From: Thermodesulfobacteriota bacterium
Lineage (GTDB): Bacteria > Desulfobacterota > BSN033 > UBA1163
Assembly: GCA_030024065.1 (NCBI GenBank)
Contig: JASEIE010000123.1
Coordinates: 1 to 10,518 of the forward strand
DNA length: 10,518 nt
Direction: 5' to 3'
Under the pieces are notes generated by a model. That model made no database searches and was not told where the DNA came from. It saw only the letters and a program-made list of their open reading frames with translations. Within the stretch, counting starts at the first letter, position 1. Each line of letters starts with the position of its first letter. Of this stretch, positions 135-10,266 are shown in pieces. The position numbers were made by a program, and so were the translations under genes.

Positions 135-1067
135 TTGAACCTTAACCAATTAAAAACCTTCTACTTTGCCGTGAAATACGGAAGCTATAGCGCAGCCGCC
201 GAGGCCCTCTATATCACCCAGCCAGCCGTGACAAAACAGATCCAACAACTTCAGGCAACCTATGGGGTGAAGCTCTTAAACCGATTTGGGAAAAAGATGG
301 TGCCCACCGACGCCGGCGAAGTCCTCTACGATTTTGCAGATAAAATCTTTCAATTCGAAAATCAGGCTGAAGAGAGTCTCCGCGATTTTCAACAGCGTAA
401 AAGCGGTCGTCTCCGGATTCACGCGAGTGAGAGTTTTGGGGCTTACTACCTCCCCTTCATCATCAACCTTTTCAGGAAGAAATATCCGAAGATTCATATC
501 TCCGTCAATATCTTTCCCAATCGGGAGATTATTGAAAACACGGTCAAACTCGAAAATGACATGGGGTTTATCTCCTACCCTATTGAGCATAAAAAATTAA
601 TGGTCCGGGAAATATTAGAGGATAGACTGGTTCTCATCGTACCCTCCTCCCATCCCTTTGCCAAACAAAAGCTCCTTGAACCTCGAAAACTGGATGGACA
701 ACCAGTGGTGATGCATGAAAAGGGATCTGCCTCCCGTGAGATTGTCGACGAATTTATCAGGAGGAATAATCTTTCTGTTTCGATATCCCTGGAGCTTTCC
801 AATAATGAAGCCATTAAAAGAGCTGTTGAAGAAGGGATCGGTCTCTCCCTCATCTCAGAACATGTGGTCAGCGAGGAGGTGAAGAGAAAAAAGTTAAAAT
901 CGATCCCCCTCGTTGACCCAACCTTGATACGAAAATTTTACTTGATTTACCACAAGGAGAAATATCTCTCTCAGCCCTTCCAAATGTTCATCAGCATGGT
1001 CAATCAATGGTCCTCGGAATATCATAAGGCATACGCCGAGAGATCACCTCTTCCAAGCCTCTCCTGA
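135..1067 (+). CDS. LysR-type transcriptional regulator (first of two paralogs)
   Basis: A 310-residue LysR-type DNA-binding regulator of the CysB/CbbR kind, expected to act in the cytoplasm as a tetramer that senses a small metabolite. The N-terminal winged helix-turn-helix covers about residues 1-60 (MNLNQL, then SAAAEAL..TQPAVTKQI), followed by a linker helix and a periplasmic-binding-protein-like effector domain from about residue 90 to 295. The start is TTG at 135: AAAGG at 122-126 sits 8 nt before it, and the protein then begins MNLNQL exactly like the second regulator at 7776. In an ungapped comparison 36 of the first 73 residues are identical to that paralog. The gene converges on the aldehyde dehydrogenase gene, only 6 bp separating the two stop codons. 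Family assignment is secure; target genes and inducer are inferred to be those of the adjacent CoA-thioester cluster. Confidence 0.93.
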   Translation: MNLNQLKTFYFAVKYGSYSAAAEALYITQPAVTKQIQQLQATYGVKLLNRFGKKMVPTDAGEVLYDFADKIFQFENQAEESLRDFQQRKSGRLRIHASESFGAYYLPFIINLFRKKYPKIHISVNIFPNREIIENTVKLENDMGFISYPIEHKKLMVREILEDRLVLIVPSSHPFAKQKLLEPRKLDGQPVVMHEKGSASREIVDEFIRRNNLSVSISLELSNNEAIKRAVEEGIGLSLISEHVVSEEVKRKKLKSIPLVDPTLIRKFYLIYHKEKYLSQPFQMFISMVNQWSSEYHKAYAERSPLPSLS

Positions 1068-1073
1068 AGGAAA

Positions 1074-2474
1074 TTAATCTTTTCCCCACTTCTTGAAATA
1101 GTCTCCGAAGAGTTCCTCATCCGGGGGGATGTATTCTTCCACAGGAACCGAAAGCCAGGTATAGTTGAGGAAATTTCTGTAGTTAATATTCTCACTGGTC
1201 ATGTTACCAGCCCAGGTTCCGCAACCCAGGCTTTCCGTCCAGATTTGACCGTTGTACCAGCTTCCCGTGTTGACCAGACAGTGGGGCATATTGCATTCCA
1301 CTCTCCCAACTTTCGCCCTAATGGCAAGTTTCTCCATACGATCCACTCGATTGCTGTGGAGGGATACAGAATGCCCTATTCCCGAGAATTCAAGGATTTT
1401 ATCCAATCGGTCAAGCATCTCTTCGAAGTCATTCCATTTCCAAACGGTCAAAACAAGACTGATCTTCTCACCGGAGAACCTGTCCTCAGGACCGATCTTT
1501 TCTCCCATGACCATCAGAAACTTTGTTCCTTCTGGGGCTTTAAACCCAGCTGCTTCTGTAATGATGGGGACGGATCTACCGAAGATATCCCGATTCAGTG
1601 TCTTCCCGTCTGGCCAGAGCGCTTCTCTCAGTTTTTCTCGCTCTTCAGTATTGCACAGATATCCGCCCTCCTTCTTTAACAGACCCATAAATTGATCATA
1701 AATAGGCTCGTAAATCGCCACCGCATTTTCTGAAGAACATGACGTTGAATTGTTGGCAGTCTTGGAACGCATGATCTTGTTGGCGGCAGCAGGCATATCG
1801 GCTGTTTCATCCACAATCGACACCACATTTCCGGCTCCCACGGTGTGGCAGGGTTTACCAGCCTTATAAACCACTTTGATCAGGGCGGCTCCACCCGTCG
1901 CCATCGCGAAGTCACAACTTGCCATCAGTTCGGATGTCGTTTCATTCGTGGGGTTTGCAATACATTGAAACAGATCCTCGGGCGCGCCAATTTTCTTGAG
2001 AGCCCTCCTCCCAATCTCAACCGTAAGATAGGAGCATTGCTTTGTCCTTGGATGTGGGGAACAGATCATTGAGTTTCGGGTCTTTAAGAGACCGAGGCCA
2101 ATGGTACAGACCGTCCCTTCAGGATTCGTCATGGGAACCACATTGGCAACTACCCCTATGGGTTTGGCATAGATTTTCAAACCTCTTTTTTTATCTTCTC
2201 TTACCAGCCCACAGGTCTTCACGCCTTTGAATTCGTTGATGGTTCCTCGCACCTTGCTCCGGATCTTGTTAATCTTATCTTCATAGACACCGATGAGGCC
2301 TTCATCGACAGCGGACTTGGCCATAGCTTTGACATTTTCGTCTTTCTGCCATTCCCAACCCACCGCAGCGCACATCTCATCAATCTTCTCCTGGGGCCAG
2401 TACTCAACGATTTCAAAGGCCTTTCTTGCCCTCCGATACATCTCCTGGATATTGTCGTTATGGTCCTGCGGCAT
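1074..2474 (-). CDS. CoA-acylating aldehyde dehydrogenase (sulfoacetaldehyde / succinate-semialdehyde dehydrogenase-like)
   Basis: A 466-residue member of the acylating aldehyde dehydrogenase family, which interconverts an aldehyde plus CoA and NAD(P)+ with an acyl-CoA and NAD(P)H. The nucleotide-binding part is in the N-terminal half (YAKPIGVVANVVPMTNP near residues 102-118). The catalytic cysteine is Cys246 in NNSTSCSSENAVAI. The C-terminal LGCGTWAGNMTSENI (about 416-430) is typical of the AdhE/SucD/SauS branch and absent from hydrolytic aldehyde dehydrogenases. Length fits stand-alone acylating enzymes such as SauS or clostridial CoA-dependent succinate-semialdehyde dehydrogenase. No alcohol dehydrogenase domain follows, so it is not AdhE. 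ATG at 2474 is preceded by AAAGGAGGT. It lies 73 bp downstream of the citrate-synthase-like gene and is probably co-transcribed with it. The substrate (sulfoacetaldehyde, succinate semialdehyde or another short aldehyde) is undetermined. Confidence 0.85.
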   Translation of the reverse strand: MPQDHNDNIQEMYRRARKAFEIVEYWPQEKIDEMCAAVGWEWQKDENVKAMAKSAVDEGLIGVYEDKINKIRSKVRGTINEFKGVKTCGLVREDKKRGLKIYAKPIGVVANVVPMTNPEGTVCTIGLGLLKTRNSMICSPHPRTKQCSYLTVEIGRRALKKIGAPEDLFQCIANPTNETTSELMASCDFAMATGGAALIKVVYKAGKPCHTVGAGNVVSIVDETADMPAAANKIMRSKTANNSTSCSSENAVAIYEPIYDQFMGLLKKEGGYLCNTEEREKLREALWPDGKTLNRDIFGRSVPIITEAAGFKAPEGTKFLMVMGEKIGPEDRFSGEKISLVLTVWKWNDFEEMLDRLDKILEFSGIGHSVSLHSNRVDRMEKLAIRAKVGRVECNMPHCLVNTGSWYNGQIWTESLGCGTWAGNMTSENINYRNFLNYTWLSVPVEEYIPPDEELFGDYFKKWGKD

Positions 2475-2547: not shown

Positions 2548-3417
2548 TTATTCTTTGCGATCTTCAGGCTTTGGAACCGGCCGGTCCGGGTGACCATCAT
2601 AATACTTGGGCCCCTGAATAGAGAGGTCGAGAAGGTTGATCATTTTCGTCGTACGGGAGGCCCTCCAGGCTTTTTCCCGGGTCATCTCCTCAATGGCATG
2701 GGCTCCACAACTGAATCCGCGGCAGAGGACTCCAATCGCCCAGGCCGCAAGGGGGCTGAATCCCAGGTCCATAAAGACAGAGTTGCCACCGCCAATGACG
2801 TTCGTCCAGATCTTCTTCCCGTTGATACGCTCAAACGCTTTTTCAATCTCGATCTGCAAGTCGTGAAATTTCCCTGCTACTCCCAGCTCCCTCGCCATCC
2901 TCATGATCCGGATGGCCCTTGGGTCACCATGGATGTGCTGGGGTTGTCCCAAGCCCATAATCATCTTCCCTTTATGATCCTTGACCAATTGCTCAGCAGC
3001 CTGAGCGAGGGTCCACCCATTTTTCTCAGCCATATCCATGTATTTATGAACCATGATTCCATGCAGGTGGCCCGGACCATGGGCCTCACCAAAGGTCATG
3101 ATTCCTGCTGCGATGGCGGCGTTGAGCGCCGGTCTCCCCGAAGCACAACACCTCGCGGTCAGAGTCGATGGAGACATGGCATGTTCCGTGAACTCGACCA
3201 TAAAGATATTTAACATTTTTTCTTCATTTTTCTTGGGAAGCCTGCCCTGGTAGAGTAGAAAAATAACAGCGGCAAAACTCCACCCCGCCTCTGCCAGCTC
3301 TGTCGTTTCATACCCCCTCAGGACAATCCTATCCGCGGTCTTGTAAGAAATCCCACTTTGCCAATGAAACGGTTCTCTTCCAGTCTGATCATATTGATCT
3401 CCCCATTCTTCTGCCAT
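2548..3417 (-). CDS. Citrate synthase / citryl-CoA lyase fold protein with altered active site
   Basis: A 289-residue protein with the small single-domain form of the citrate synthase fold, closest in layout to citryl-CoA lyases and the C-terminal part of ATP-citrate lyase. Landmarks are GEAHGPGHLHG (110-120), MGLGQPQHIHGDPRA (154-168) and NVIGGGNSVFMDLGFSP (206-222), then a helical C-terminus. Histidines 113, 117 and 119 can supply the first catalytic His. In the GFGH..DPR motif the second His is Gln158, and in the NVD motif the catalytic Asp is Ile208; DPR and DLGF around them are intact, so the alignment is firm. Members of this family normally make or break citrate or a related acyl-CoA aldol product; with these changes ordinary citrate synthase chemistry is unlikely. 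AAAGGAG lies 9 nt before the ATG. The gene leads a two-gene unit with the acylating aldehyde dehydrogenase. Fold is confident; function is unknown. Confidence 0.8.
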   Translation of the reverse strand: MAEEWGDQYDQTGREPFHWQSGISYKTADRIVLRGYETTELAEAGWSFAAVIFLLYQGRLPKKNEEKMLNIFMVEFTEHAMSPSTLTARCCASGRPALNAAIAAGIMTFGEAHGPGHLHGIMVHKYMDMAEKNGWTLAQAAEQLVKDHKGKMIMGLGQPQHIHGDPRAIRIMRMARELGVAGKFHDLQIEIEKAFERINGKKIWTNVIGGGNSVFMDLGFSPLAAWAIGVLCRGFSCGAHAIEEMTREKAWRASRTTKMINLLDLSIQGPKYYDGHPDRPVPKPEDRKE

Positions 3418-3460
3418 CTCATCTTTCTCCTTTCTAATGAGTTTTTTATTAAATTTTTTG

Positions 3461-3509
3461 CACCCTCACCCCCTCTCTCTCCTCGCCGGGGAAGAGGGGA
3501 AGGGTAAGC
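3461..3509. repeat. Imperfect palindromic intergenic repeat (CACCCTCACCCC type)
   Basis: A GC-rich imperfect inverted repeat: ACCCT plus CCCCTCT on the left pairs with AGAGGGG plus AGGGT on the right around a GCCGGGG centre. It resembles a kind of CACCCTCACCC...GGGTGAG repeat that I recall as widespread between genes in many environmental bacterial genomes; that comparison is from memory. It sits upstream of the citrate-synthase-like gene, separated from the start by an AT-rich stretch (3424-3460) that could hold the promoter. No U-tract follows it in the leftward direction, so it is not an evident terminator. Confidence 0.55.
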
Positions 3510-3517
3510 TAAGATAC

Positions 3518-3589
3518 GTAGTGTAGCCCTTTATGCCTGCCTGCCGCAGGCAGGGGCGTAAAAAAGGCGGGCACAAGGCCCTCCACTAC
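3518..3589. repeat. Miniature palindromic element with about 24-bp imperfect terminal inverted repeats
   Basis: The ends 3518-3541 and 3566-3589 are inverted repeats matching at 18 of 24 positions, starting GTAGTG and ending CACTAC. Nested inside is a perfect 8-bp stem, CCTGCCTG (3536-3543) and CAGGCAGG (3547-3554), with a CCG loop. The structure fits a REP-like or small MITE-like element. On the minus strand it also gives GGGC-CTTGT-GCCC followed shortly by six T residues, about 30 nt after the stop codon of the CoA-transferase subunit B gene, so it may end that transcript. Repeat nature is visible; mobility and termination are inferred. Confidence 0.6.
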
Positions 3590-3609
3590 AACTTATTTAT
3601 TCACCTGGA

Positions 3610-4425
3610 TCAGTCCGCTTTCCCTCCTCCTTTCTTGAGACTATCCTTGAGGTAGACCCCCTCTTTATCGACTTCCTCTCGTAAAATCCTCAATTCTTCA
3701 TCCGTTGGAGGTTCCACCTCCTCGACTTTCGAAGCCACCTCTGGAACAAATCCCGTATTCTCTATCACCCTCTCAACCGACACCCCGGGCATGAGCTTTG
3801 TGATCGCCAATCTCCCTTTTGACTTGTCCAGCTCCATCACGGCGAGATCTGTGATCAGGATGATATCAGGCTTGTTCACCTTCATGAAATTTTTAGTCCG
3901 TCCCTCAGAGCCATCGATGTAGCCGGGGCTTGTAATGAAATCGACTTGGGGAGGAAATCTCCTCTTCTCATGTCTTGTGATGATGAGGATATTGGGAACA
4001 TTCGATGCGATATCATTGGCTCCACCACTTCCAGGAAATCTGGTCTTGGGATTTTCTGGAGAGCCAATGTAGGTGGAGTTAATGTTTCCATATTGATCGA
4101 TCTGGGCTCCACCTAAAAATCCAATGTCGACCAATCCCCTCTGCACCAGGCAGCCCAAAACCTCCCTCTTCGCTCCCAGCTTGACGGCCTTTCTCATGAT
4201 ATTCGGATCGGTCACAGAGATGGGGACCGTGTCAAAAATCGGATCTACCGGGCCGCTTTCGATGACGAAATTGACATTGGGAGCATGAGTCTTTTGCGCA
4301 AACATGGAAGCTGCCATAGGAAGACCGGTGCCCACCACTACGGTATCCGTATCTTTGATATACCGGCTCCCCTCAATGATCATCAGTTCGTCGCTGGAGT
4401 ATTCTTTTGCATAGACCTTTGCCAT
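3610..4425 (-). CDS. Family I CoA-transferase, subunit B (glutaconate CoA-transferase-like)
   Basis: The beta subunit of a heteromeric family I CoA-transferase, which moves CoA between carboxylates through a glutamyl-CoA thioester. The motif VIESGPVDP carries the catalytic glutamate; counted from the start chosen here it is Glu56, close to Glu54 of the Acidaminococcus enzyme as I recall it. Further family features are GFLGGAQID, the glycine-rich FPGSGGANDIA loop, and PGYIDG. Length is 271 residues, as usual for GctB-type subunits. I chose ATG at 4425 because a perfect AAGGAGG ends 5 nt upstream; an ATG at 4440 in frame lies before that site and would add five residues (MKEDM). The gene begins 17 bp after the stop of subunit A, so the two are translated together. 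Retention of the ESG glutamate argues for real transferase activity, as opposed to the hydrolase role of IpdAB-like relatives. The acid partners are unknown. Confidence 0.88.
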   Translation of the reverse strand: MAKVYAKEYSSDELMIIEGSRYIKDTDTVVVGTGLPMAASMFAQKTHAPNVNFVIESGPVDPIFDTVPISVTDPNIMRKAVKLGAKREVLGCLVQRGLVDIGFLGGAQIDQYGNINSTYIGSPENPKTRFPGSGGANDIASNVPNILIITRHEKRRFPPQVDFITSPGYIDGSEGRTKNFMKVNKPDIILITDLAVMELDKSKGRLAITKLMPGVSVERVIENTGFVPEVASKVEEVEPPTDEELRILREEVDKEGVYLKDSLKKGGGKAD

Positions 4426-4442
4426 CATATCCTCCTTCATCT

Positions 4443-5369
4443 CTACATCATGCGGAGCATCATCTTTCTCAGCTCCAGCATCTGTTTGATCCCTCCTACC
4501 CTGTCCAGGTAGTCCTCAAAGGTGTTGCAGCTGTGGACATAGTCATCGAGGTATTTCTTGATCCCATCTTTTCCCTTTCTGGCACACTCCTGATAAAAAC
4601 GGATGTGTTCCGTATCGTAAGTATAATATCGGTAGGTCATGGTTGGGTGAGCACCAAAAGGAACTTCGACCACGGCATCAATGAAGTGGTAAGGGAGCGT
4701 TGTCCGATCCGGATTATTTCGTGTCTCTTCAGAACTAATCAGCTCCTCACAGGTGATGATACAGGCCTTCGATGCCCGGATCAATTCAGGCTCGTGGTTG
4801 GAAATTCCTTCAATGATAATATTCCCGATCTCGTCTGCCTTCTGGACATGAACGATTGCAACATCAGGAACCATTGCTGGAAGGAGAAGCACCTTCTCTC
4901 CCGGGTTCCATGGGTTATCGATGATCTCATATTTCTTTTGAGTCGAAGGAGCCTTGGCCCTAAGGATGTCAGATCCAAGTAAGCTCCGGCAGGGAATGAA
5001 GGGAAGGCCCATCTCTCCCGCTAAAAATCGTGAGACCATACTGCCGTGGCTAAAATCTTCGATCTCCATCCGCTTCTCTTCGATGGCCCTTTTAAAGGAG
5101 AACGTGGCTCCAAACCGCTCCAGATTTCCGGATCCGCATTCGCATTTCTTGACCAACCCAGCAGCCACCAGCATATCCATCTGGATGGAGAGGTTGCATC
5201 CTGTTAAAGTGAGGTTCTTCTTTCCCTGGCGGATGATCTCATGGACCGTGGCCACCTGGCATCGGGAGATATTCTGCCCCCCCAGACCCACAATGGCCCC
5301 ATCGAAGACGAACTTCTCCACTGCTTCCTTAAGTGTCATCACTTTGTTCTTCTTGGATGCTTTCGACAT
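4443..5369 (-). CDS. Family I CoA-transferase, subunit A (glutaconate CoA-transferase-like)
   Basis: The alpha subunit partner of the gene immediately downstream. The 308-residue protein starts with a short lysine-rich stretch, then MTLKEAVEKFVFDGAIVGLGG with the glycine-rich turn typical of CoA-transferase alpha subunits. ISRCQVATVHEIIRQGKKNLTL follows, and later AMVPDVAIVHVQKADEIGNI, the usual mid-domain motif, where the pattern D..G|N.. is recognisable. GctA-type subunits are about 320 residues. The catalytic glutamate is contributed by the B subunit in this family. ATG at 5369 has GGAGTG 7 nt upstream. The gene starts 132 bp after the end of sucD, and that gap contains AT-rich inverted repeats, so the pair may have its own promoter. 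Family is secure; glutaconate as substrate is not implied by the sequence. Confidence 0.87.
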   Translation of the reverse strand: MSKASKKNKVMTLKEAVEKFVFDGAIVGLGGQNISRCQVATVHEIIRQGKKNLTLTGCNLSIQMDMLVAAGLVKKCECGSGNLERFGATFSFKRAIEEKRMEIEDFSHGSMVSRFLAGEMGLPFIPCRSLLGSDILRAKAPSTQKKYEIIDNPWNPGEKVLLLPAMVPDVAIVHVQKADEIGNIIIEGISNHEPELIRASKACIITCEELISSEETRNNPDRTTLPYHFIDAVVEVPFGAHPTMTYRYYTYDTEHIRFYQECARKGKDGIKKYLDDYVHSCNTFEDYLDRVGGIKQMLELRKMMLRMM

Positions 5370-5501: not shown

Positions 5502-6377
5502 TTATACTTTTCTAAGGGAGGCAATCAGCTCTTCCCCCACCGAGGCAGGATTTCTGACGACCCGGACGCCCGCTTTTTCGAGGGCCTCCATCTTTTCCCT
5601 GGCTGTGCCCTTTCCACCTGCGATGATCGCTCCTGCATGGCCCATCCGTCGCCCAGGGGGGGCTGTAAGACCCGCGATAAAGGCCACGACCGGTTTCTTG
5701 ACGTTCTTCTCAATATATTCAGCTGCCTCCTCTTCCGCCGTCCCGCCGATCTCACCGATCATGATGATGGCCTCCGTGCCCGGATCTTTCTCAAACATCC
5801 CCAGGAGATCGACGAAGTTGAGGCCGATGATCTGATCCCCTCCTATTCCCACACATGTCGACTGTCCCACCCCTTTTTTGCTCAGTTGATCCACCACCTC
5901 ATAGGTGAGCGTCCCGCTCCGCGACATGATCCCGATCGTCCCGGGATTATGGATACACCCCGCCATCACCCCGATCTTGCATTTCCCAGGGGAGATGACC
6001 CCGGGGGTGTTGGGCCCAACCAGCTTTAGCCCTTTCTCCTTCAGGGCCTTTTTGGCCACGACCATCTCGATCGTCGGGATCCCCTCTGTGAGACAAACGA
6101 TGGTGGGCACCCCTGCGTCTGCAGCCTCCAGGATCGCATCGGCGGCAAAGGCCGGAGGAACGAAGATGGCTGAGACATTGGCACCCGTCTCTTTGACGGC
6201 CTGCAAGACAGTGTTAAAGACCGGTATGCCATCGACCTTCTGCCCCCCCTTTCCCGGGGTCACTCCAGCCGCGACCGCGGTCCCATACTCCACCATCTGC
6301 CGGGTGTGAAACATCCCTTCATTCCCCGTAATCCCCTGAACAACGACCCTTGTCTTTTCATCTACCAAAATGCTCAT
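5502..6377 (-). CDS. sucD: Succinyl-CoA synthetase type acid:CoA ligase, alpha subunit
   Basis: The alpha subunit of an ADP- or GDP-forming succinate:CoA ligase, which joins succinate (or a similar acid) to CoA at the cost of a nucleoside triphosphate through a phosphohistidine. The 291-residue protein has the N-terminal CoA-binding Rossmann domain ([22 protein letters not shown], about 11-32, and VTPGKGG at 39-45), the [16 protein letters not shown] segment (121-136), SRSGTLTYE (152-160), GIGGD (177-181), and the phosphorylated His247 in [16 protein letters not shown]. All match the E. coli SucD pattern. GGAGG lies 5 nt before ATG. The spacer from sucC is 101 bp, long for a sucCD pair, and carries an inverted repeat. 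A malate-CoA ligase or other acid specificity cannot be excluded from sequence alone. Confidence 0.93.
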
Positions 6378-6395: not shown

Positions 6396-6482
6396 ATTAG
6401 GTTGAGGTTTAGGCTAAGGTTTAGCCTTTTTTCTTCATGGCACTCTTCATGAATTTAATCTCAACATTAACCTCAGCCTTAA
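6396..6482. repeat. Inverted repeat with nested hairpin in the sucC-sucD spacer
   Basis: The outer arms 6396-6409 and 6469-6482 are inverted copies matching at about 11 of 14 positions; the right arm overlaps the sucC stop codon. Inside is a perfect 7-bp stem, AGGCTAA (6411-6417) and TTAGCCT (6421-6427), followed on the plus strand by a run of T. In that orientation it looks like an intrinsic terminator, but no plus-strand gene ends here; on the sucCD transcript the hairpin is preceded by an A run and should not terminate. It may adjust the sucC:sucD ratio or protect the message. Confidence 0.5.
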
Positions 6483-7648
6483 CCTTGTGTTCTTAGTGCT
6501 TCGGCGACTTTCTCGGCCGCATCCCTCATCCCTAATCCCACCAAAAAATCGAACCCCGACTCCCTCAAAATCCTCCGCCCTTCCTCCACATTCGTCCCCT
6601 CTAATCGGATCACCACAGGAACCCTCACCTCTACCTCCCGCACCGCCTCCGTCACCCCTTTGGCCAACGTATCACACCTCAAAATCCCTCCAAAAATGTT
6701 GATAAAAACCACCTTCACGTTGGGGTCGGACATCAAAATCTTAAACCCATTCTTCACCATCTCCGCTGTCGCCCCTCCTCCTACATCCAAAAAATTCGCA
6801 GGCTCGGCTCCGACGACCTTGATGATGTCCATGGTCGCCATGGCCAGTCCAGCTCCGTTCACCATACAACCCACATTTCCGTCAAGCTTGATGTAATTCA
6901 AATTATACCTCGATGCCTCAATCTCCAAAGGATCCTCCTCGTTTAAGTCCCTCAAAGCCTGGATCTCTTTATGCCGATATAAAGCATTGTCATCAAAGTT
7001 CATCTTCGCATCCAGGGCAATAAGATCCCCTCCTCGTGTTAAAACCAAAGGGTTGATCTCCGCCAAAAGGCAATCCTTCTCCCAGAAGGCCTTATAGAGC
7101 CCTGAAAGCACGGACCTCAGCTTGCCTATCTGTCCAGGTTCCAGTCCCAGTCCATACCCAATCTTGTTGCTATGAAAAGACCTAAATCCCGTTAAGGGAT
7201 CAATCCATTCCTTTACGATTTTCTCCGGAGCCTCCTCAGCCACCTTCTCAATCTCCACCCCTCCCTCTCGGCTTGCCATTACTACAGGAGACGCTCTGGA
7301 TCGATCAATCACCACACCAAGATAGAGTTCCTCTTCGATCCTCACTCCTTCCTCTACCAAAATTTTCCGCACGATCCGTCCCGATGGTCCTGTTTGGTGG
7401 GTGATCAGGGTCATCCCCAACATCTCCCTTGCCACCTTCTCAGCTTCCTCATGGGAATTGACCACCCTCACACCCCCACCTTTCCCTCGTCCTCCGGCAT
7501 GGATCTGGGCCTTCGCCACAATGGCCTCTCCCCCAATCTCCTCCGCAATCCTTCGGGCCTCCTCAGGCGACCCGGCCACTCCTCCTTTGGGAACTGGAAC
7601 TCCATACCCCCTCAGAACCTCCTTGGCCTGATACTCGTGGATCTTCAT
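6479..7648 (-). CDS. sucC: Succinyl-CoA synthetase type acid:CoA ligase, beta subunit
   Basis: The beta subunit of the same ligase, providing the nucleotide-binding ATP-grasp domain and part of the carboxylate site. MKIHEYQAKEVLRGYGVPVP opens the protein as in nearly all SucC. KAQIHAGGRGKGGGV (46-60) is the ATP-grasp nucleotide loop. Mg-binding residues appear as Glu197, Asn199 and Asp213, the same numbers as in E. coli SucC. The C-terminal ligase domain shows GNVGCMVNGAGLAMATMD (257-274), FLDVGGGA (286-293) and VFINIFGGILRCDTLAKG (314-331). Length is 389 residues, standard for the family. AAGGAGGAGAGG lies just upstream of the ATG. It is the first gene of the leftward series, divergent from the second LysR gene across a 127-bp control region, so it is the most likely direct target of that regulator. 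ATP versus GTP preference cannot be judged. Confidence 0.94.
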   Translation of the reverse strand: MKIHEYQAKEVLRGYGVPVPKGGVAGSPEEARRIAEEIGGEAIVAKAQIHAGGRGKGGGVRVVNSHEEAEKVAREMLGMTLITHQTGPSGRIVRKILVEEGVRIEEELYLGVVIDRSRASPVVMASREGGVEIEKVAEEAPEKIVKEWIDPLTGFRSFHSNKIGYGLGLEPGQIGKLRSVLSGLYKAFWEKDCLLAEINPLVLTRGGDLIALDAKMNFDDNALYRHKEIQALRDLNEEDPLEIEASRYNLNYIKLDGNVGCMVNGAGLAMATMDIIKVVGAEPANFLDVGGGATAEMVKNGFKILMSDPNVKVVFINIFGGILRCDTLAKGVTEAVREVEVRVPVVIRLEGTNVEEGRRILRESGFDFLVGLGMRDAAEKVAEALRTQG

Positions 7649-7736: not shown

Positions 7737-7775
7737 GAAAAAACTATAGCAATTTTCACAGCGAAGAGGGGCATG

Positions 7776-8672
7776 ATGAACCTAAATCAACTCTGGATAT
7801 TTTATAATGTAGCTAAGCTTAAGGGCTTCTCCTTGGCAGCAGAGGCATTATTCTTGACCCAGCCATCCATCAGCACCCAAGTCAAACTTCTGGAAAATTC
7901 GTATAACATCAAACTCTTTGAGAGGTTTGGGAAAAAGATAGAGCTAACCAACCATGGGCAAGTGCTTTTCTCGTATGCTGAGAAGATATTTAATCTCACC
8001 CAGGAGGCAGATAGTGTCATTGAAGATCTGAAGGGGATGAAGGGTGGAAATCTAAAGATCGATACGAGTCTCACCTTGGGAGCTTACTATCTCTCAGATA
8101 TACTCACTGCTTTCAATTTAAAGTTCCCCAATATTAAGATCCAGATGCGGGTGGGAAATACCCAAAAAGTGGTCGAAAATGTGCTAACCTTCAAGACCGA
8201 TCTCGGGTTTATCGGACAGATAGAGTCCCATGAGAAACTCGTCGTTCTCCCATTTATCGAAGAGGAATTGGTGATTATCGTTCCTCCTTCTCATGAATTC
8301 GCAGGGCAGAAAACCATCAAGCTCTCCAGATTGAATGGGCAACCCTTTATCATGAGGGGAAAAGGGTCCATGACACGAGAGGAAGTTGAGAAGATATTTA
8401 AAAAGGAACGCCTCTCTGTCAATGTGAGAATGGAACTGGAGAGTAACGAAGCGATCAAAAGGGCGGTCGAAGATGGTCTTGGCATCTCCATCATATCAGC
8501 GAATGTGGTGAAGCGAGAAGTCGAGGCAGGGCTCTTAAAGATTGTCCGGCTCTCCGGAGAAAAGGTCACTCGAAATTTCTCGATCATTTATCATAAGGAT
8601 AAATACCTTTCGAATATCATCCAATCCTTTCTTAAGATTGCCACGGAGTATTCACACCGCTATTACCATTAG
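7776..8672 (+). CDS. LysR-type transcriptional regulator (second of two paralogs)
   Basis: A 298-residue LysR-type regulator paralogous to the one at 135-1067. The N-terminal helix-turn-helix reads MNLNQL then SLAAEALFLTQPSISTQV; the effector domain begins near residue 88 with LKIDTSLTLGAYYLSD and keeps SNEAIKRAVEDGLGISIIS, almost the same as NNEAIKRAVEEGIGLSLIS in the first paralog, which suggests related inducers. Two ATG codons are in tandem at 7773 and 7776; the second is preferred because GAAGAGGGG ends 4 nt before it and it gives the same MNLNQL start as the paralog. The gene is divergent from sucC and shares its control region, so it probably regulates sucC and itself. The stop codon is immediately followed by a palindromic element that may end transcription. 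Confidence 0.94.
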   Translation: MNLNQLWIFYNVAKLKGFSLAAEALFLTQPSISTQVKLLENSYNIKLFERFGKKIELTNHGQVLFSYAEKIFNLTQEADSVIEDLKGMKGGNLKIDTSLTLGAYYLSDILTAFNLKFPNIKIQMRVGNTQKVVENVLTFKTDLGFIGQIESHEKLVVLPFIEEELVIIVPPSHEFAGQKTIKLSRLNGQPFIMRGKGSMTREEVEKIFKKERLSVNVRMELESNEAIKRAVEDGLGISIISANVVKREVEAGLLKIVRLSGEKVTRNFSIIYHKDKYLSNIIQSFLKIATEYSHRYYH

Positions 8673-8874: not shown

Positions 8875-10266
8875 TTATCCATTGAGAAGAGAAATAAGTG
8901 GATTTCCGTCCCGGTGGATTGAGCTTGGTCCCAATAAATGCTCGATGGTGGGAGTGATATCGACTTGTTGTGGGAGGCGATTGATTTGACTCTCTGAAAT
9001 GAGTTCCGGGGCATTGAGATTTAAAGGCTCACCAATCTGACCCATTCGCTCTACGTCAGGTCCGGCAAAGATCATCATAATGTTCGCATCCGAAAAATAA
9101 GGAGCGCCATGGTAACCCTGGAGTCTCACATCGTATTCTCCCAGAAATGTGTATCCATATTCTGCCACGGCAATGATCGAAGGGGCATGATCACAGGCGA
9201 CACGCTGAACAAACCAAGGCGCCTCTGGATCATCCTTTCTCCAGGCACCAGCCACATGATCCATGGATCTCACGGCTTCAAGGATGGTATTCAAGATGTG
9301 AGGAGTTTGGGATCGTAAGTAAATTCCCGGGGTACTTCCCAGGAGGATATGAGCCACTTCCTTCCGTAACTTTTCTGGGAGTTCAGATCGCAAAAGGGAT
9401 GGGAAGTCGACCACACCTTTCAGTGGCGTCATCCCGTGGTCAGATGTGACCACGATCAGGGTTTCATCGAGGGTTCCCATCCGATCCAATTGGTCAAGGA
9501 TTCGGCCAATTTGTCGATCGATCATTCGAATGGAATCTTCCATTTCGTTTGAATGGATGGGAAAATAGTGGCCGACAATATTTGGAGACACAAGCCCCAC
9601 ACAGAGGACCTCTGGTCTTTCCATGGCCAGAATCTCCAGGGCCGCATCCATGATGAACTGATCCATGAGGGGAGTCTGGGCCGTGTCCATATGAGGATAG
9701 GAAAATCCATTGCCGGACCAGTTCGTATAACGGGGAAGTTGATATCCTCGAAGGTAGGAAGGAAGGGACCTCCCTTTTCTCTCTGCAAAGGTGTAATGGT
9801 CTTCGAGAACTCCTGCCCCCTGAAAGGTAAAGGAGTCTGGAAACTCCCTGTAAGAATGGATGATCAGATCTGCATGATGGCCAGCGAGGAGGATGGCATT
9901 TCGATCCTTGCTCGAAACAGATGCGATTTTTGTTTTGGGATTTCTGGCCTTGATGAGATCTCCAAAGGTGGGAGCCAAGAGGTTGACCGCATGGCCATAT
10001 TCGTCCACGCTGTAGACCACTCGATTCTCCTCTGGGCTGTACCATTCGTGACTGGCCACAACCCCATGAGTTTTGATGTAGGAACCTGTCGAGATGGTTG
10101 CTATCCCAGAAGCCGTCTCGATAAAGGCCTGACAGGCCATTGCATTTTGAAAGCGGACCCCTCGATCAATGAGCTCATGGAGATTCGGAGTCTCAAAGAC
10201 ATCGATGAGATCTCCCCTTCCTCCATCCACCACAATCATCACGATAAGATTTATTTTCTTTGACAT
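8875..10266 (-). CDS. Alkaline phosphatase superfamily hydrolase (type I phosphodiesterase / PafA-like)
   Basis: A 463-residue alkaline-phosphatase-superfamily enzyme, expected to hydrolyse a phosphate ester or related bond with two divalent metals and a threonine nucleophile. Visible elements are metal ligand Asp14 in IVVDGG, the probable nucleophile Thr51 in ETASGIATISTGSY followed by THGVV, Lys120 and Arg122 in SSKDRNAILLAGH (the pair that marks PafA-type monoesterases), VGH with His233, TSDHG with Asp276 and His277, and GYHG with His386. The Asp usually found four residues before the His of VGH is Asn229. The position that is usually Asn in the HGI..N.WY segment appears to be His73. There is no signal peptide or membrane segment, unlike secreted PafA enzymes, so it is probably cytoplasmic. 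The ribosome site is weak. It faces the LysR gene and may be unrelated to the CoA cluster. A phosphonoacetate-hydrolase-like role is possible but unproven. Confidence 0.8.
   Translation of the reverse strand: MSKKINLIVMIVVDGGRGDLIDVFETPNLHELIDRGVRFQNAMACQAFIETASGIATISTGSYIKTHGVVASHEWYSPEENRVVYSVDEYGHAVNLLAPTFGDLIKARNPKTKIASVSSKDRNAILLAGHHADLIIHSYREFPDSFTFQGAGVLEDHYTFAERKGRSLPSYLRGYQLPRYTNWSGNGFSYPHMDTAQTPLMDQFIMDAALEILAMERPEVLCVGLVSPNIVGHYFPIHSNEMEDSIRMIDRQIGRILDQLDRMGTLDETLIVVTSDHGMTPLKGVVDFPSLLRSELPEKLRKEVAHILLGSTPGIYLRSQTPHILNTILEAVRSMDHVAGAWRKDDPEAPWFVQRVACDHAPSIIAVAEYGYTFLGEYDVRLQGYHGAPYFSDANIMMIFAGPDVERMGQIGEPLNLNAPELISESQINRLPQQVDITPTIEHLLGPSSIHRDGNPLISLLNG

Follow-up and report, generated by a model that had tools for sequence, protein, structure and literature searches.

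The question raised by this locus is whether a protein with the fold of citrate synthase, in which two of the three catalytic residues have been replaced, is still an enzyme and, if so, for which reaction. The protein, here called CSL, is encoded in the window (the whole 10,518-nucleotide stretch of DNA analysed) next to a CoA-acylating aldehyde dehydrogenase (ALDH) and a pair of CoA-transferase-like subunits (Table 1).

Table 1. Features of the window, by position on the stretch
Feature	Coordinates	Strand	Remark
LysR-type regulator	135..1067	+	convergent with the ALDH gene
CoA-acylating aldehyde dehydrogenase (ALDH)	1074..2474	-	NCBIfam and solved-structure matches
CSL (alpha-clade citryl-CoA-lyase-like protein, 289 aa)	2548..3417	-	single open frame
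Gap 5' of CSL	3418-3609		192 nt
Glutaconate-CoA-transferase-like subunit B (CoAT_B)	3610..4440	-	62% identical partner in G282
Glutaconate-CoA-transferase-like subunit A (CoAT_A)	4443..5369	-	64% identical partner in G282
Succinate-CoA ligase alpha subunit (sucD)	5502..6377	-	above curated cut-off
Succinate-CoA ligase beta subunit (sucC)	6479..7648	-	above curated cut-off
Second LysR gene	7773-8672	+	
Type I phosphodiesterase/alkaline-phosphatase superfamily	8875-10266	-	

CSL has the citrate-synthase/citryl-CoA-lyase fold, as the sequence-only reading had recognized, and in family searches it matches best to the short citryl-CoA lyases of NCBIfam and to Pfam Citrate_synt; the nearest solved and curated family can be refined to the short citryl-CoA lyases, as opposed to citrate synthase. 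Of the NCBIfam citryl-CoA lyase models, six match it (PRK06224.1-6), all below their cut-offs and the best at 159.3 bits against 212, such that the profile search suggested by that reading upholds the relationship and not membership. Alignment to Ccl of Hydrogenobacter thermophilus (PDB 6hxp) places Gln158 (codon 2944..2946, minus strand) in the position of the GFGH His, Pro159 in that of the Arg following it and Ile208 (codon 2794..2796, minus strand) in that of the NVD Asp, with the first catalytic His (His113), the DPR motif, Arg233 and His240 retained; two of the three catalytic residues are replaced, just as had been read from the motifs. CSL further differs from Ccl in an extra C-terminal WRAS...YYDG segment, and its other residues of note are His79, Gln160, His161 and Arg167. 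Because the GFGH His and the Asp are both gone, a mechanism of the citrate-synthase type would be short of two groups. Structures of the human ACLY mutant D1026A, deposited under titles with substrates and with products, fit this Asp being needed. The basic residue after GFGH, which we take to help bind CoA, is not conserved in the CSL clade.

We then compared the active site across 117 proteins (P0001-P0104 and 13 from the loci) and in a larger alignment of 200 sequences, 68 rows of which were chosen by His113/Gln158, so that only other positions count as evidence in them. His113, Gln158, His161 and a hydrophobic residue at 208 occur together in 61 of the 63 closest proteins (P0001-P0063), the exceptions being P0011, which ends before 208, and P0041, which looks disrupted. 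Taken singly, Gln158 is found in 62 of the 63, the remaining protein being disrupted there, and position 208 is I, L, V or M in all 61 that cover it; the alpha rows of L001, L002, L003 and G282 agree with this signature, and Gln158/hydrophobic208 is a fixed trait of the alpha clade. A compensating Asp at the NVD position was considered and rejected, as none occurs in the clade. Across the 68 His113/Gln158 rows H79, R95, P159, Q160, H161, R167, N206, R233, H240 and W251 are invariant where present, and to judge from these alignments the invariant polar positions look like a pocket in use. Position 163 is variable in the clade (H, Q, E, D, K, N, G, R, Y), which refutes the earlier suggestion that His163 serves as a new catalytic group; the parallel suggestion for His161 stands as to conservation and fails as to novelty, since 45 of 46 relatives outside alpha and beta also have it. 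Those 46 relatives keep the GFGH His without exception, have lost the first His in 41 cases and the Asp in 40, and carry all three catalytic residues in only five. Loss of the Asp is common among proteins named citryl-CoA lyase and by itself is nothing special, but Gln158 combined with a retained His113 was seen in the 117-protein alignment only in the alpha clade. The relatives found bearing this signature include none with known activity. One alpha-clade protein, P0106, has a C-terminal zinc-ribbon-like segment (PF13248).

The frame of 289 codons runs without interruption, and CSL is under purifying selection (dN/dS about 0.04 for the window against L001 and about 0.03 against L003; L002 gave no dS), in keeping with the earlier claim of an intact, selected gene free of frameshifts.

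In a midpoint-rooted tree of 65 rows chosen from the 200, for which the program warns of long branches meeting, alpha and beta (47 rows) separate from the other relatives with 100/100 support, and beta (11 tree rows) forms a single branch, again at 100/100, nested inside alpha; this nesting may be affected by long branches. In 85 of 85 beta rows (P0064-P0066, P0107-P0187 and G282b) position 113 is Tyr or Phe, position 158 is Val, Ala or Ile and position 208 is Leu or Phe, and His79, His161 and Arg167 are lost in nearly all of them as well (98-99% other residue). The family nevertheless keeps the common motifs despite the loss of all three catalytic residues, and its members are 313-361 aa long except for the disrupted P0121; forms devoid of catalytic residues are maintained in the alpha/beta branch. 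In G282 the beta gene directly follows alpha (L019:5393-6331), and P0121, in which an alpha-like half and then a beta-like part, both disrupted, occur in one database protein, is a second case of such adjacency. The best 120 of 1404 matches of a profile search, whose profile already contained three beta rows, gave 83 new proteins, 81 of them beta and two alpha; named beta records come from a Deltaproteobacteria MAG, Desulfococcaceae HSG9 and a Planctomycetota MAG. No beta gene lies beside alpha in the window-type loci, and G001 and G002, searched with beta P0123 at E 1e-30, returned only their own alpha gene (5 of 7 and 5 of 5 candidates scored).

Of 395 genomes drawn from the phylum to which G002 belongs, 3 (G001, G002 and G282) matched an alpha/beta profile at 1e-50 or better and 9 at 1e-25; in the class, 4 of 23 genomes matched. 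Draws from the order, from the class and, repeated, from the phylum added no genome with alpha or beta to G001-G003 and G282. Among plasmids, tblastn with CSL recovered 134 records, all below 60% identity and the top 20 listed at 27-34%, and the 46 records recovered with beta all cover less than 80% of the query; viral contigs gave nothing for either. Of seven plasmid regions examined, six entered the alignments, L027 being omitted as it has no annotation.

The position of CSL beside an acylating aldehyde dehydrogenase, claimed earlier, is confirmed in the window. The top NCBIfam match of ALDH is SauS, below its cut-off (466.9 bits against 600 needed), its best solved relative is the acetylating succinate-semialdehyde dehydrogenase 8cei, and the Cys of its CSSE motif is kept, as the alignment shows. 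The CoAT pair matches solved glutaconate CoA-transferase (1poi_A, 169 bits; 1poi_B, 167 bits), and the Glu of the CoAT_B ESG motif (residue 61) aligns with that of 1poi_B; these are class I CoA-transferase subunits with the catalytic Glu, with glutaconate as a putative substrate. The SucCD pair is found near CSL only in the window among five loci, the L001 and G282 contigs ending close by, and its functional link to CSL is weak. The gap preceding CSL, which has a long hairpin and the inverted repeat GCCTGCC/GGCAGGC, folds better than shuffled sequences (z -2.35), and because of it CSL and ALDH may form a transcript separate from the CoA transferase; Rfam gave no match for the gap, and a pattern scan of its minus strand found no terminator-like site and promoter-like sites at chance level. 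Elsewhere in the window, the phosphodiesterase-superfamily protein bears a weak likeness to PafA and phosphonoacetate hydrolase, and the second LysR protein scores above the NCBIfam cut-off for selenium-metabolism-associated LysR (260.4 bits against 250), while family scans named no selenium enzymes among the nine window proteins scanned.

Contextual information comes from five loci, the window, L001, L002, L003 and G282, of which the first four are so closely related that they amount to little more than one, with G282 offering the one view of the context of the 50%-identical groups. In L001-L003 CSL is 92%, ALDH 89-90% and LysR 80-89% identical to the window copies, LysR having the same position and orientation. 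The order there is CSL, ALDH and LysR, followed divergently by a PhnX-like hydrolase, a class III aminotransferase and a HemL-like aminotransferase; at this end the window aligns with these loci in the LysR start and the stretch upstream of it. At L001:3830-11137 and L003:13567-20353 the PhnX-like hydrolase and two class III aminotransferases are accompanied by a 2-aminoethylphosphonate-type (PhnS2/U2/T2-like) ABC transporter; the HemL-like gene is cut short in L002, and transporter genes are within reach only in L001 and L003. The family scores were made on the L001 copies, L002 and L003 being matched by gene order and first residues. The PhnX-like and PhnS2/U2/T2 scores of L001 all lie below cut-off (168/219, 169/393, 308/593 and 347/458, the last gene being cut by the end of the stretch), and at curated cut-offs L001 does not qualify as a 2-aminoethylphosphonate catabolic cluster; one aminotransferase alone passes a model, named 'hypothetical protein'. 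These divergent genes possibly represent an undescribed amino-phosphonate or amino-sulfonate route. A CitE-like CoA-ester lyase, below the citE and RipC cut-offs, lies between ALDH and LysR in L002 only (L002:12418-13323).

The order in G282 is an aldehyde:ferredoxin-oxidoreductase (AOR)-like gene, a HAD hydrolase, alpha, beta, CoAT_A and CoAT_B, the AOR-like gene standing two genes upstream of alpha (242 bits, 868 needed); the draft genome has no ALDH match, and its 8.5-kb contig shows none of the phosphonate-type transport and transaminase genes. An aldehyde oxidizer consequently occurs in all five loci, as acylating ALDH in the four near-identical ones and as the AOR-like protein in G282. 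To the question posed by the sequence-only reading, whether Gln/Ile define a clade that always neighbors an acylating aldehyde dehydrogenase, the answer is yes as to a group of relatives, more exactly marked by Gln/hydrophobic, and no as to 'always'. The CoA transferase pair adjoins CSL in two of the five loci, the window and G282, whose CSLs are 51-52% identical. It is absent from the L002 and L003 clusters, the L001 contig ending before that place; its best matches in the genomes of L002 and L003 are 39-42% identical and lie elsewhere in the genome, and G001 has none.

Based on the fixed signature, the invariant polar positions, purifying selection and the fold, CSL would be a working enzyme. 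We tentatively favor, short of thinking it probable, a C-C lyase of CoA thioesters whose product is an aldehyde instead of oxaloacetate, a reaction type, direction and substrate that we infer from three features: the adjoining CoA transferase, the adjoining aldehyde oxidizer, and an electrophile site that lacks the oxaloacetate His and Arg while keeping the enolate-side His. With the GFGH His and the following Arg (now Pro159) lost, contacts through which citryl-CoA lyases bind oxaloacetate are gone, which suits a smaller, less charged carbonyl product. In such a scheme, with residue roles presumed to carry over from citrate synthase and ATP-citrate lyase, the glutaconate-CoA-transferase-like enzyme would load a hydroxy acid onto CoA, for which the SucCD pair might supply succinyl-CoA as the donor; His113 would hold the thioester carbonyl and the enolate, and His79, Gln158, Gln160, His161 and Arg167/Arg233 the rest of the substrate. 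CSL would then cleave in the retro-aldol direction to acetyl-CoA, or another acyl-CoA, and an aldehyde to be oxidized by the neighboring ALDH in the window or AOR-like protein in G282, and without the Asp the proton of the acetyl carbon may be handled by another group, such as His161 or water. Citrate and citramalate lyases likewise pair a transferase with a lyase, and the CitE-like protein beside ALDH in L002 supports this reading. It is weakened by the absence of the CoA transferase from the L002 and L003 clusters, by the possibly separate CSL-ALDH transcript, by the non-conserved CoA-binding basic residue, by the want of a relative of the same signature with known activity, and by the association of CSL and ALDH in L001-L003 with genes for phosphonate-type transport and for transaminases, a set that requires no lyase. 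The database label 'citryl-CoA lyase' is probably wrong for the alpha clade, whose members likely act on CoA-bound compounds in some other way.

The strongest rival is that CSL is a non-catalytic or regulatory partner, which would bind a CoA ester or keep the CoA transferase and ALDH together in a complex. We consider this unlikely while giving it serious weight, given that two of three catalytic residues are missing, that beta, nested in alpha subject to the long-branch warning, is maintained without any of them, and that the two are adjacent in G282 and run together in P0121. However, alpha retains His79, His113, Arg167, Arg233 and His240 and adds the invariant Gln158, Gln160 and His161, and the more plausible scaffold is beta, which accompanies alpha neither in the window-type loci nor in the searches of G001 and G002. 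Between the enzyme and partner roles left open by the earlier reading, the conserved polar site favors the enzyme, with beta showing that non-catalytic copies are kept in the branch. A more improbable proposal is a base-free cleavage of X-CH2-CO-SCoA (X being carboxylate, sulfonate or phosphonate) to acetyl-CoA, with ALDH making the thioester from X-CH2-CHO and His113 stabilizing the enolate once X departs, whence no Asp would be needed. We know of no citrate-synthase-fold enzyme with such an activity. The top curated match of ALDH to the sulfoacetaldehyde enzyme SauS would suit it, as would the PhnX-like protein, the two class III aminotransferases and the PhnS2/U2/T2-like transporter of L001, the set expected for an aminoalkyl phosphonate or sulfonate, which L002 and L003 share within their stretches. 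Bilophila SauCD, an ADP-forming ligase, and SauS handle sulfoacetyl-CoA, according to the portion of PMC12890257 consulted. Against this stand the below-cut-off scores of the SauS and phosphonate families, the passing of SucC and SucD as succinate-CoA ligase, the lack of phosphonate-type genes on the G282 contig, and the consideration that a PhnX-type hydrolase would strip the phosphonate before the thioester stage.

The remaining probability falls to reactions not listed here and to two minor rivals. That CSL is an ordinary citryl-CoA lyase or citrate synthase tolerating the substitutions is very improbable: the fold, the anchors and the names of most named relatives ('citryl-CoA lyase' or 'citrate synthase') speak for it, but all six citryl-CoA lyase models fall short, every clade protein in which these positions are intact has other residues in place of the GFGH His, the next Arg and the Asp, the ACLY deposits fit a needed Asp, and G001-G003 each have a separate open frame of about 400 aa, 28-31% identical to CSL and presumably citrate synthase. 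The reverse-TCA arrangement of a SucCD-like citryl-CoA synthetase with a lyase was likewise set aside, as the G170 locus combines SucC-like and SucD-like proteins with a lyase having all three catalytic residues, which CSL does not resemble. A decaying or frameshifted gene, for which the loss of two catalytic residues is the sole argument, is ruled out for practical purposes by the intact frame, the low dN/dS and the identical substitutions across the clade.

Among known systems, the proteins P0069-P0104 and the plasmid copies of Rhodococcus, Marinovum and Martelella resemble CSL in the short citrate-synthase fold, the lost Asp, the kept His161 and mostly the Pro after GFGH, and the plasmid copies sit in CoA-catabolic clusters; yet this group keeps the GFGH His and loses the first His, the reverse of the alpha clade, and lies on a separate tree branch. 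The first His and the Asp are missing in 39 of 39 rows of P0069-P0104 with L028, L029 and L031, and because of this the annotation 'citryl-CoA lyase' or 'citrate synthase', carried by those of them that have a name, is doubtful well beyond the alpha clade. The citrate lyase, citramalate lyase and itaconate-degradation modules share with our proposal the logic in which a transferase makes the CoA ester that a lyase splits; their lyase is CitE, a TIM barrel, whereas the proposed lyase here has the citrate-synthase fold. The Bilophila sulfoacetate module combines an ADP-forming CoA ligase (SauCD) with an acylating aldehyde dehydrogenase (SauS), and the consulted portion of PMC12890257 mentions no citrate-synthase-fold protein in it; in the window, by comparison, ALDH is below the SauS cut-off, whereas SucCD score above that of succinate-CoA ligase.

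Neither the fold nor the superfamily is new, and altered residues already occur elsewhere in the citrate-synthase superfamily; the site signature and the alpha/beta pairing appear undescribed, as we found no paper on the Gln/hydrophobic clade or the alpha/beta pair among the open-licence papers searched. The 'citryl-CoA lyase' label is taken as a sign of carbon fixation by the reverse TCA cycle or of citrate metabolism. Should the clade prove catalytic, an active site for C-C bond formation that ranks among the best studied can work without its general base and its oxaloacetate-binding His. It is conceivable, though on balance doubtful, that the site has been rebuilt on His113, Gln158, Gln160 and His161, without an Asp base, for a CoA-thioester reaction new to the fold, and that a sub-branch forms a heteromer with the de-catalysed beta. 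Were this true, the rebuilt alpha and de-catalysed beta would document in nature, step by step, how an enzyme loses and replaces its catalytic residues, and the alpha/beta pair offers a direct route to studying how enzymes turn into non-catalytic partners.
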